Shown piece by piece: positions 39,871-42,802 of a DNA stretch of 64,000 nt (position 1 is the first letter of the stretch; every line of letters begins with the position of its first letter). The DNA lies in NCBI RefSeq assembly GCF_000317595.1, contig NZ_AEJC01000629.1:1-64000 (forward strand). Direction: 5' to 3'. This stretch comes from Streptomyces ipomoeae 91-03 (GTDB lineage: Bacteria > Actinomycetota > Actinomycetes > Streptomycetales > Streptomycetaceae). Position numbers and translations under genes: made by a program. The notes beneath the pieces are model-generated. The model made no database searches, was not told the origin of the DNA, and saw nothing but the letters and a program-made list of their open reading frames with translations.

Positions 39871-40509
39871 ATGGCCCTCATCCACCACACCACCCTCAAG
39901 CCCACCAAGCTCGAACTCCTGGCCTCCTGGCTCCCCACCCGCCCGTGGTACGCCGACGGCCCCGGCGAACCCCGGCTCACCAAGGCCGGCGGCTTCCGGC
40001 TCGACGACCCCGAGGGCGAGGTGGGCATCGAGTTCATGGTCGCCACCGACACCTCGGGCTCCACCCCGGTCCACTACCTGGTCCCGCTCACCTACCGCGG
40101 CGCCCCACTCGACGGCGCCGACCACGCCCTCATCGGCACGATGGAACACGGCGTCCTGGGCAAGCGCTGGGCCTACGACGGCTGCCACGACCCCGTCCTG
40201 CTCACCCAGCTCCTGGCCCTCTTCGAGGGCAACGCCGAACCCCAGGCCCAGAGCCTCACCGACACCCCGGACCCCGAGATCACCCGCTCATACACCGGCG
40301 ACGGCTCTCTGTCCCTGGGCGCCCTCACCCCCGCGGACGACGACAAGAGCACCAAGCTCTCGCTACGACCGGGCACGACCCTCCACCTCAACCGAACCCT
40401 CCAGCCCGGCCCGGACACCCTCCCCGAAGGGGCAACGGGACACGTCGCCGGCCACTGGAACCTCCCGGACGACACCCGCGCCCGCGCCGTTTTCGCCGTA
40501 CTGCGGTAA
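39871..40509 (+). CDS. Maltokinase N-terminal cap-like domain protein
   Basis: 212 residues. IHHTTLKPTKLELLASWLPT and RPWYADG, then GGFRLDDPEGEVGIEFMV, match the N-terminal cap of actinobacterial maltokinase (Mak), but the kinase domain is absent. Stand-alone caps occur in Streptomyces and their function is not known to me. The C-terminal half (LGALTPADDDKSTKLSLRPG) is a beta-rich extension. The stop is followed within about 20 bases by a new promoter. Confidence 0.75.
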   Translation: MALIHHTTLKPTKLELLASWLPTRPWYADGPGEPRLTKAGGFRLDDPEGEVGIEFMVATDTSGSTPVHYLVPLTYRGAPLDGADHALIGTMEHGVLGKRWAYDGCHDPVLLTQLLALFEGNAEPQAQSLTDTPDPEITRSYTGDGSLSLGALTPADDDKSTKLSLRPGTTLHLNRTLQPGPDTLPEGATGHVAGHWNLPDDTRARAVFAVLR

Positions 40510-40526
40510 ACCCCTCGAAAAATCGC

Positions 40527-40555
40527 TTGAGCGCCACGAGAACGGTTCTTAAGGT
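40527..40555 (+). promoter_or_regulatory. Strong vegetative promoter
   Basis: TTGAGC (40527-40532), 17-bp spacer, TAAGGT (40550-40555), a good match to the main Streptomyces sigma factor. Start expected near 40,562, leading into a 12-codon ORF. Confidence 0.65.
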
Positions 40556-40588
40556 GTGCGGTACACGAGAAGGGAGGTGGTTCGGCAG

Positions 40589-40627
40589 ATGTATGACAAC
40601 CGGACGCGTGAGGTGGCTGCGGGCTAG
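40589..40627 (+). CDS. 12-codon ORF (MYDNRTREVAAG) behind its own promoter
   Basis: ATG-to-TAG frame of 12 codons with AGGGAGG eight bases upstream and a consensus-like promoter 35-60 bp upstream. No larger plus-strand gene follows; the next gene is convergent citrate synthase, whose terminator hairpin lies 180 bp away. It may be a micropeptide, the translated part of a small RNA, or a leader whose gene was lost. I know of no annotated relative. Confidence 0.45.
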   Translation: MYDNRTREVAAG

Positions 40628-40810
40628 CGGCCTGTCACCACACTCGGTGCGGTGCCGGACCAGTGCGTGAATTGAACGCGCAGCCGGCCCAATCTCAAGC
40701 AGTCACCCGACCCGTGGGCTCGCCGGTACGTCCGGCCGGCTTCTCCGTCGTTGAGATGGGGGACCTGAGCTCGCGGGTCGTCTGCGTTTGTGGGGTGGGG
40801 AGTGAGGGGG

Positions 40811-40840
40811 GCCACGCGGGGCTGGTCGGTCCCGCGTGGC
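40811..40840. terminator. Citrate synthase terminator
   Basis: GCCACGCGGG-N10-CCCGCGTGGC perfect 10-bp stem just beyond the minus-strand stop. It would also end the short plus-strand transcript started near 40,562. Confidence 0.75.
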
Positions 40841-40857
40841 GTGAGGGTCGGATTTCG

Positions 40858-41961
40858 TCAGTGGGCGGCGATGTCCTCGTAGCCCTCGATGTCCCGGGGG
40901 TCGCGGGGGCCCGGGCCGATGTAGCGGGCGGAGGGGCGGACGAGGCGGCCGGTGCGCTTCTGTTCGAGGATGTGGGCCGACCAGCCCGCCGTGCGGGCGC
41001 AGGTGAACATGGATGTGAACATGTGGGCCGGGACCTCGGCGAAGTCCAGGACGATGGCCGCCCAGAATTCGACGTTCGTGGCGAGGACACGGTCGGGGCG
41101 GCGGGCGTGGAGTTCTGCCAGGGCCGCCTTTTCCAGGGCTTCGGCGACCTCGAAGCGGGGGGCGCCGAGGTCGCGGGCGGTGCGGCGGAGGACTCGGGCT
41201 CGGGGGTCCTCGGCGCGGTAGACGCGGTGGCCGAAGCCCATGAGGCGTTCGCCCTTGTCGAGGGCTCGTTTGACATAGGCCTCGGCGTCGCCCGTGCGTT
41301 CGATTTCCTCGATCATGCCGAGGACGCGGGAGGGGGCTCCGCCGTGCAGGGGGCCGGACATGGCTCCTACGGCGCCGGACAGCGCGGCTGCGACGTCCGC
41401 GCCCGTCGAGGCGATCACGCGGGCGGTGAAGGTGGACGCGTTCATGCCGTGTTCCGCAGCCGAGGTCCAGTACGCGTCCACGGCTGCCACGTGCTTCGGG
41501 TCGGGCTCGCCGCGCCAGCGGATCATGAAGCGTTCGACGACGGACTGGGCCTTGTCGATCTCGCGCTGCGGGACCATGGGCAGGCCCTGGCCGCGGGCGG
41601 ACTGGGCGACGTAGGAGAGGGCCATGACGGCGGCGCGGGCGAGGTCCTCGCGGGCCTGTTCCTCGTCGATGTCGAGGAGGGGTTTGAGGCCCCAGACCGG
41701 GGCGAGCATGGCCAGGGCCGACTGGACGTCGACGCGGATGTCGCCGGAGTGGACGGGGATCGGGAACGGTTCGGCGGGGGGCAGGCCGGGGCGGAAGGCT
41801 CCGTCGACGAGCAGGCCCCAGACGTTGCCGAAGGAGACGCGGCCGACCAGGTCCTCGATGTCGACGCCCCGGTAGCGGAGGGCGCCGCCCTCCTTGTCCG
41901 GTTCGGCGATCTCCGTTTCGAACGCTATGACTCCTTCGAGCCCGGGTACGAAGTCGGACAT
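40858..41961 (-). CDS. Citrate synthase family protein
   Basis: Condenses oxaloacetate and acetyl-CoA (or another acyl-CoA) to citrate or a homologue. 367 residues, type II-like short form. Catalytic residues are visible in SAAEHGMNASTF (His), GFGHRVYR (His) and VLDFAEVP (Asp). GAGGAG lies seven bases before the chosen ATG. Actinomycetes carry several citrate/methylcitrate synthases, and sequence alone does not decide which this is. Divergent from pdxH, with an inverted repeat between. Confidence 0.92.
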   Translation of the reverse strand: MSDFVPGLEGVIAFETEIAEPDKEGGALRYRGVDIEDLVGRVSFGNVWGLLVDGAFRPGLPPAEPFPIPVHSGDIRVDVQSALAMLAPVWGLKPLLDIDEEQAREDLARAAVMALSYVAQSARGQGLPMVPQREIDKAQSVVERFMIRWRGEPDPKHVAAVDAYWTSAAEHGMNASTFTARVIASTGADVAAALSGAVGAMSGPLHGGAPSRVLGMIEEIERTGDAEAYVKRALDKGERLMGFGHRVYRAEDPRARVLRRTARDLGAPRFEVAEALEKAALAELHARRPDRVLATNVEFWAAIVLDFAEVPAHMFTSMFTCARTAGWSAHILEQKRTGRLVRPSARYIGPGPRDPRDIEGYEDIAAH

Positions 41962-42048
41962 CAGGCGGCTCCTCTTGATGTGTGCGACAGGGGGCGGCTG
42001 GTGGATGCGGCCGGAGGGGCCCAACCAGAATGTTCCAGCACCTTACGC

Positions 42049-42090
42049 CTGAGTGCCAGGTTTGGGGAGAGTGTGCGGCACTCAGTGCCA
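42049..42090. promoter_or_regulatory. Inverted repeat CTGAGTGCC-N19-GGCACTCAG
   Basis: Perfect 9-bp arms 19 bp apart (42049-42057 and 42077-42085). The right arm also overlaps GGCACT-C-AGTGCC, giving three half-sites. It lies in the gap between the divergent citrate synthase and pdxH genes. Confidence 0.55.
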
Positions 42091-42130
42091 CCAGCCTTCC
42101 GGTCGGCCGTCCATGCGGCAGGATGGCCCC

Positions 42131-42802
42131 GTGAACGATCCCGGTCTCGTACCCATGCCCGATCCCGCTCTGATGCGCAAGCAGTACCGGGCCGACGGGC
42201 TCGACGAGAGCGAGCTGGCCGATGATCCGATGGAGCAGTTCGGGCGGTGGTTCCGGCAGGCCGCGCAGGACGGCGCGATGTTCGAGCCGAACGCCATGGT
42301 CGTGTCGACCGCCGACGCCGAGGGGCGGTCCAGCTCTCGTACGGTGCTGATGAAGGCGTTCGACGAGCAGGGCTTCGTCTTCTACACGAACTACGGCTCC
42401 CGCAAGGCCCTCGATCTCGCCGGGAACCCGTATGTCTCGCTGCTCTTCCCGTGGCATCCGATCGCCCGGCAGGTGATCGTGAGCGGTACGGCGCGGCGGA
42501 CGGGGCGGGACGAGACGGCGGCGTACTTCCGTACGCGTCCGCATGGTTCGCAGTTGGGCGCGTGGGCCAGCGCGCAGTCCTCCGTCATCGCCTCGCGGGC
42601 CGAACTGGACGCCATGTACGAGGAGTTGGCCGCCCGTTATCCGGAGGGCGAGCAGGTGCCGGTGCCGCCGAACTGGGGTGGTTTCCGGGTGGTGCCGCAG
42701 AGTGTGGAGTTCTGGCAGGGGCGGTGGAATCGGCTGCACGACCGGTTGCGGTATGTGGCGGAGCCGGATGGGTCCTGGCGGGTGGAGCGGCTGAGTCCAT
42801 GA
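42131..42802 (+). CDS. pdxH: Pyridoxamine 5'-phosphate oxidase
   Basis: FMN enzyme that makes pyridoxal 5'-phosphate from PNP/PMP. 223 residues. FMN/substrate motifs are [34 protein letters not shown] and C-terminal [17 protein letters not shown] followed by RLHDR. GTG 42131 with AGGATGG upstream gives the usual family length; an earlier GTG would overlap the inverted repeat. Monocistronic, ending in a repeat array. Confidence 0.95.

Follow-up and report, generated by a model that had tools for sequence, protein, structure and literature searches.

Ms_IGR-5 of Streptomyces ipomoeae, a small RNA with a conserved mini-ORF and an extended Shine-Dalgarno leader, as a candidate translation-gated RNA

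Bacterial small RNAs that are also translated, such as SR1, SgrS and RNAIII, are known as dual-function RNAs, and leader-peptide attenuators combine a strong Shine-Dalgarno (SD) sequence and a short ORF with alternative pairings and a terminator-like hairpin. Ms1 and 6S RNA are widespread structured RNAs that bind RNA polymerase, Ms1 being present in the Actinobacteria. This group is also rich in leaderless mRNAs, whose translation does not involve the 3' tail of the 16S rRNA.

The available text of a study on Staphylococcus aureus (PMC13009471) describes extended-SD sites with weak or non-canonical start codons (AUU, AUA) that are conserved and low-yielding. The small RNA Ms_IGR-5 (Rfam RF02471) is named in the available text of three papers, in which the S. 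lividans homologue was validated by RNA-seq (PMC8079986), the S. avermitilis homologue is an sRNA transcription unit (PMC8780764) and the M. abscessus and M. smegmatis homologues are ribosome-protected, with the caution that footprints can also occur on non-coding RNAs (PMC4974804). The literature on Ms_IGR-5, within the text available and supplements apart, gives no function and contains no account of the ORF, of the complementarity to 16S rRNA or of the long-range pairings reported below. Of two names considered for the S. coelicolor homologue, scr2736 was rejected, since in the text available it belongs to another family, RF02831 (PMC8079986), and scr4389 is not claimed, as it fits by number alone and is listed without a location (PMC8388888).

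The present analysis concerns a locus in a 64-kb stretch of DNA (64,000 nt, hereafter the window) of Streptomyces ipomoeae 91-03. The plus strand gave a covariance-model match to RF02471 of 91.9 bits (gathering cut-off 45), spanning model positions 1-184, i.e. the full length, and RF02471 was the only Rfam family to reach its cut-off anywhere in the window. Our own model, R1, scored 136.2 bits at 40561-40786, the window being one of its 45 training sequences. The locus is a member of the known RNA family Ms_IGR-5 and a stand-alone RNA gene. An earlier note on this DNA had proposed it as a candidate undescribed regulator, which the RF02471 match and the papers naming the family contradict; its description of a small RNA with an orphan promoter, a ribosome site and a 12-codon ORF is borne out by the sequence and by RF02471, the ribosome site being strong and the ORF real, with TTGAGC, TAAGGT, AGGGAGG (40571-40577), the ORF and the inverted repeat all in the places where it had put them. 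The coordinates are collected in Table 1.

Table 1. Features of the Ms_IGR-5 locus in the window (positions counted from its first nucleotide)
Feature	Position	Strand	Details and basis
Whole small RNA, RF02471 Ms_IGR-5	40563..40786	+	covariance-model match, 91.9 bits
A-tract (UP-like)	40518-40522	+	sequence; A-rich block upstream in 218 unique loci
-35 region TTGAGC	40527-40532	+	sequence; TT(G/T) upstream in 218 unique loci
-10 element TAAGGT (TAnnnT)	40550..40555	+	sequence; T/A pattern in relatives
Extended Shine-Dalgarno, 16 nt	40568..40583	+	can pair (G-U allowed) with whole 16S 3' tail GGAUCACCUCCUUUCU
12-codon ORF MYDNRTREVAAG	40589..40627	+	ATG 40589, TAG 40625-40627; kept in relatives; shuffle test
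GGAC inside ORF	40602..40605	+	proposed partner: loop GUCC 40730-40733
Helix PL, 5' strand GGTGGCTGC	40612..40620	+	ORF codons 8-11; overlaps GAGGTG 40610-40615; RNAalifold, pair counts
Helix PL, 3' strand GCAGTCACC	40699..40707	+	78 nt after 5' strand in window; pair counts
P3, own terminator-like hairpin	40708..40780	+	arms 40708-40721/40767-40780; loop GUCC 40730-40733
Separate inverted repeat beside citrate synthase	40811..40840		sequence and fold of surrounding 51 nt; outside RF02471 match

Like SR1, SgrS and RNAIII, the locus is a small autonomous RNA with a short ORF, here predicted to be translated; unlike them, its peptide is apparently not conserved, and its ORF and 3' domain can pair together. 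All the features listed above for the leader-peptide attenuators recur in it, but no co-directional gene comes next in the window, where citrate synthase is convergent, and the neighbours vary among relatives (a co-directional ORF is next in some of 19 chosen loci). An extended SD, weak or non-canonical starts and conservation are shared with the S. aureus sites, but these drive protein genes (PMC13009471, available text), whereas here they belong to a stand-alone RNA with an ORF of 10-15 codons. Like Ms1 and 6S RNA, it is a widespread structured RNA, but those two bind RNA polymerase, and the Rfam model of neither reached its cut-off in the window. To RF02471 itself, of which the locus is a full-length member and whose Rfam structure holds neither the helix PL nor the loop contact, the analysis would add these two predicted pairings together with the ORF, the 16S complementarity and the putative relatives in the Spirochaetota.

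On balance, Ms_IGR-5 is probably a structured RNA gated by translation, its leader serving to capture 30S subunits. When no ribosome is present, the ORF would be tied up by the 3' domain through PL and GGAC:GUCC. A 30S subunit caught by the very strong leader would initiate at the mini-ORF, and the translating ribosome would open both contacts, free GCAGUCACC and the GUCC loop, and terminate a few codons later. Pairing of the ORF with the 3' domain and occupancy by a ribosome would exclude each other, and the conformation, stability or partner binding of the RNA would therefore report ribosome loading. The output, on which we can only speculate, might be 30S titration, pairing with mRNAs or the timing of the RNA's own decay. 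If this is true, selection on an ORF but apparently not on its peptide, combined with a leader complementary to the entire 16S tail, would constitute a distinctive readout of ribosome status, an RNA filed as non-coding would be a mini-mRNA, and the mechanism would matter for the Actinobacteria, given the leaderless mRNAs there.

RF02471 was matched in 38 of 41 genomes comprising the own genome and relatives, in none of 14 control genomes and in 249 of the 394 genomes of the class; an RNA already named and so distributed thus gains a testable architecture. A total of 264 loci were assembled, 260 with the RNA and four 16S loci. The unique loci number 218, made up of 123 RF02471 hits and 95 loci from a pattern scan, which yielded at least 120 stretches (80 with titles among the matches listed). 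Removal of a Spirochaetia locus to the set of other classes leaves 217, and removal from the 218 of two loci that are too short gives the 216 of the full alignment. Alignment A2 consists of 45 diverse sequences picked by script, and set B of 44 unique loci from other classes and the Spirochaetota; of 40 other-class loci taken up, one (L322) gave no match. GGAGGTG, GGAY and GAGGTG are constant or nearly so by construction in the 95 pattern-found loci, and GGAGGTG and G[AG]GGT[GC] were demanded by the script in the other 123 of the 218.

From base complementarity, the leader is predicted to pair with the single-stranded 3' tail of the 16S rRNA along its entire length; the tail sequence, GGATCACCTCCTTTCT, occurs five times in the own genome. 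Thirteen of its 16 positions are able to pair in all 140 loci compared and the remaining three in 118, 135 and 139 of them, the differences being mostly A/G or C/T exchanges that convert a Watson-Crick pair into a G-U pair or the reverse. The pairing runs uninterrupted over 16 nt in 173 of the 218 unique loci, with a median duplex energy of -29.5 kcal/mol and -22.7 kcal/mol for the weakest. The window leader (-26.7 kcal/mol) surpasses all 577 control ORFs, which are uncurated, heuristically chosen long ORFs with GC bias and up to eight start choices each; their longest run reaches 14 nt and their strongest duplex -25.1 kcal/mol, and only two of the 218 loci are weaker than this duplex.

Such complementarity beyond that of the control ORFs is what would be expected of an RNA that merely titrates 30S subunits or covers the 16S tail, with the mini-ORF serving to clear active ribosomes. 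The frequent TTG start (95 of 218 loci) and the occasional CTG, ATT and ATC starts would suit this as well, in view of the low-yield starts of S. aureus in the available text of PMC13009471. A trap of this kind is nevertheless unlikely to be the whole account, as it leaves PL, the loop contact and P3 unexplained, and it overlaps the explanation by translation gating, for which it could be the output.

The structure of the RNA beyond the leader bears on the gate itself. In the RNAalifold prediction from alignment A2, GGUGGCUGC (codons 8-11) pairs with GCAGUCACC, which lies past a variable domain, and the 3' domain can, on these comparisons, pair with the body of the ORF at two places, PL and GGAC:GUCC. 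All nine base pairs of PL are possible in 185 of the 216 aligned loci, and its pairing lies above all 300 shuffles at four positions (kinship ignored). PL and the loop contact together give 18 double-changed cells against 5.5 after shuffling and at most 6 when slid, and among the five measures used, two weaker ones were equalled in 22 and 26 of 500 shuffles. A bulge-tolerant automated search for PL, which is noisy, gave a mean best of 9.8 pairs against 8.0 for shuffled sequences in the class and of 8.4 against 7.2 elsewhere, and is not taken as proof. One locus (L017) with an enlarged middle domain has only five of the nine PL pairs in the alignment, where its placement may be off by one or two bases.

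For the loop contact, the 216 loci comprise 200 with GGAC-GTCC, 12 with GGAT-ATCC, three with GGAT-GTCC (a G-U pair), one with GGAC-GTCA and none with GGAC-ATCC; the corresponding figures for the first three among the 123 loci found by RF02471 are 117, 4 and 2. The change from GGAC:GUCC to GGAU:AUCC probably arose more than once, since the GGAU-AUCC loci among the matches listed include Streptomyces, Kitasatospora and Nocardioides records. Examples from other classes also fit the contact (GCGACC:GGUCGC in L319, GUGACC:GGUCAC in L321), but outside the Actinomycetes, where the loops were picked by script, only one position of the six has loop pairing above all shuffles (34 of 42 loci, shuffled maximum 29).

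Thermodynamic prediction is less favourable to PL. The RNA is more stably folded than each of 200 shuffled sequences (z -3.5), but PL lies outside the minimum-energy fold of the window RNA (-109.9 kcal/mol when forced against -115.0) with pair probabilities of 0.0, and GCAG has an alternative partner in CUGC at the base of the terminator. The loop contact is likewise one of two alternatives, because the GGAC of the ORF can also pair next to the SD (in 98.3% of cells; covariation matched by 65 of 500 shuffles). The RF02471 structure line pairs the SD with GCUGCC of the ORF and leaves GCAGUCACC unpaired, and no double-changed cell was found for this Rfam helix. At a possible start hairpin, the base after UCC can pair with the first base of codon 5 in 132 of the 218 loci, where 105.2 would be expected (p 9e-6 in a chi-square test that takes no account of kinship), while the hairpin helix 21-24/45-48 was equalled by 63-67 of 500 shuffles.

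The RNA appears to carry its own transcription signals. The spacer between TTGAGC and TAAGGT is 17 nt, and the transcription start is predicted near 40562. In the 218 unique loci, an A-rich block lies at -54 to -51 and TT(G/T) at -46 to -44 relative to GGAGGTG, followed by a T/A pattern about 23-17 nt upstream of it; the A-tract, TTG/TTT and TAnnnT -10 of the relatives thus resemble strong promoters, and the window promoter falls under the sigma-70 thresholds of a promoter tool. At the other end, changes on both sides were seen at 12 of the 12 P3 pairs counted in A2, P3 has pair probabilities of 0.8-1.0 in the window and is not followed by a T-run, and a search for hairpins with a T-run in 40300-41000 found none. 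The earlier note had let the RNA end at a hairpin common with citrate synthase and given it roughly 250-280 nt. The end is more probably marked by the RNA's own hairpin P3, the inverted repeat at 40811-40840 being a second structure and perhaps a convergent terminator, and the RNA is probably only about 225 nt long, since the RF02471 match stops at 40786, after this long hairpin.

The gene content around the RNA was compared by tblastn over the 260 loci; the flanking DNA covered 1.5 kb for most of the initial 140 loci and up to 8 kb for the others. In the window, citrate synthase (citA) lies on the minus strand, convergent with the RNA, its ORF ending at 40858, and pdxH lies beyond it (40858-42802 for both). 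Within the flanks, citA was found in 57 loci, pdxH in 70 and the upstream 212-aa ORF in one, the window itself; neither citA nor pdxH was found in the 22 loci L031-L052 of another genus, which reads as mycobacterial from its resemblance to named Mycobacterium loci. Other flanking proteins, named from their sequences in the 19 chosen loci, are YgfZ-, Fur-, aminotransferase- and nitrobindin-like. A link with citrate synthase, and with it the role at a central-metabolism gene pair proposed in the earlier note, is unsupported because the neighbours differ between families, and for the same reason the RNA looks autonomous. Among loci with both genes, more have pdxH first and citA oppositely oriented, which suggests a local inversion or rearrangement of citA/pdxH in this clade.

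A promoter and hairpin end of its own, variable neighbours and a conserved GCAGUCACC would also characterise an ordinary trans-acting base-pairing sRNA, with GCAGUCACC or the GUCC loop as the seed and translation merely setting its stability. This is considered improbable, as the conservation of GCAGUCACC is accounted for by its pairing with the ORF, with which it co-changes.

Translation gating further requires that the mini-ORF be read. The comparison of relatives supports selection to preserve an initiation site, an uninterrupted frame and a stop codon. ATG, GTG or TTG (91, 27 and 95 loci, respectively) stands exactly seven codons upstream of GAG in 213 of the 218 unique loci, 6 to 11 nt from the SD, and the first stop follows exactly 12 codons from the start position in 216, as TAG (191), TGA (14) or TAA (13) over the whole set. 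The variable codons 2-4 contain no stops, against 41.9 by shuffling. A frame-free criterion, namely ATG/GTG/TTG 5-11 nt after GGAGGTG opening an ORF of 9-16 codons, was applied with 20 rounds of dinucleotide shuffling, kinship being ignored. The lack of ORF conservation that the earlier note had named as fatal to its own proposal is not what was found: the ORF is strongly kept, 213 of the 217 unique relatives passing against a shuffled mean of 17.4 and a maximum of 26. In set B, 34 of the 44 loci pass against 3.6 shuffled, rising to 43 against 5.9 when CTG, ATT and ATC starts are admitted, with ORF lengths of 10-15 codons. Within the ORF, GAGGTG forms a further site resembling an SD, which lies 9 nt upstream of the stop codon and could hold a terminating ribosome.

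The peptide behaves differently from the frame. With changes counted as departures from the commonest codon, non-synonymous against synonymous departures amount to 64/11, 45/6, 137/0 and 97/2 at codons 7, 10, 11 and 12, respectively. Clade f63 (L297, L303, L304 and L310) keeps GAGGUGGC with a 10-codon ORF in another frame, first codon TTG in three and ATT in one, and its peptides are unrelated and glycine/serine-rich (MHSTSGGGSS-type). Translation thus seems to be selected, and the peptide is probably not the target, because codons 7 and 10-12 drift non-synonymously and f63 uses another frame.

An RNA that acts both as such and through a functional 12-residue peptide is, on these grounds, quite improbable. 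Its case rests on the peptide pattern within the class, approximately M-x-x-x-[RW]-T-[RC]-E-V-[AT]-[AV]-[RSG], with T6 in 203 and E8 and V9 in all 218 loci (the latter partly by construction), on the many relatives in other classes that keep E-V with T or P two places upstream, and on codon 6, where departures are mostly synonymous (127 against 15), codon 5 being about even (73 synonymous, 62 non-synonymous). The codons for E8-V9, however, are constant also at their wobble bases, partly by construction, and overlap the PL strand and the SD-like GAGGUG. Codon 6 fits either view, as the loop contact constrains AC, its first two bases, but not the third; in 15 loci AC co-changes with the loop to AT, replacing T by M or I. 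Codons 5 and 6 alone would allow a conserved peptide, which the drift elsewhere and the f63 frame contradict. The suggestion of a dual-function RNA in the earlier note accordingly stands for a translated ORF under selection and fails for a conserved peptide. Nor do the peptides resemble the hydrophobic membrane peptides of type I toxin-antitoxin systems, being by eye 10-15 residues long with several charged or polar ones. That the RNA is purely non-coding and the ORF incidental is very improbable, for its cataloguing as an sRNA and the dominance of non-synonymous change at codons 7 and 10-12 are outweighed by a retention of start, frame and stop far above shuffles, by the use of three stop codons and by an ORF that in f63 has moved to another frame and not been lost.

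The distribution of the RNA extends beyond the class. R1 matches 66 of 98 genomes of the class; across the phylum it was found in 71 of 198 genomes, of which 56 belong to other classes. No widening was seen within the class in the 20 listed genomes without RF02471 (of 145 without it), which also lack R1, and viral contigs contained no exact match to the RNA pattern. The matches listed in the pattern search include a Spirochaetia contig, and in its phylum R1 matches four of 198 genomes, one of them the source of that contig. The four loci concerned (L285-L288) show, by eye, TTGAC-type -35 elements and T-run terminators, and their parts are arranged in the same order.

It is therefore conceivable, if doubtful, that translation gating forms part of a cross-phylum ribosome-sensing RNA, in which 30S capture, a clearance test by the mini-ORF and a closed/open switch set by the success of initiation would adjust the free 30S pool or the balance of leadered and leaderless translation, the clearance test being a mini-ORF that is sequence-independent and has often weak start codons. 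One genome (G123) carries two copies of the RNA, on contigs C110 and C118, and thus offers a natural test of copy divergence.
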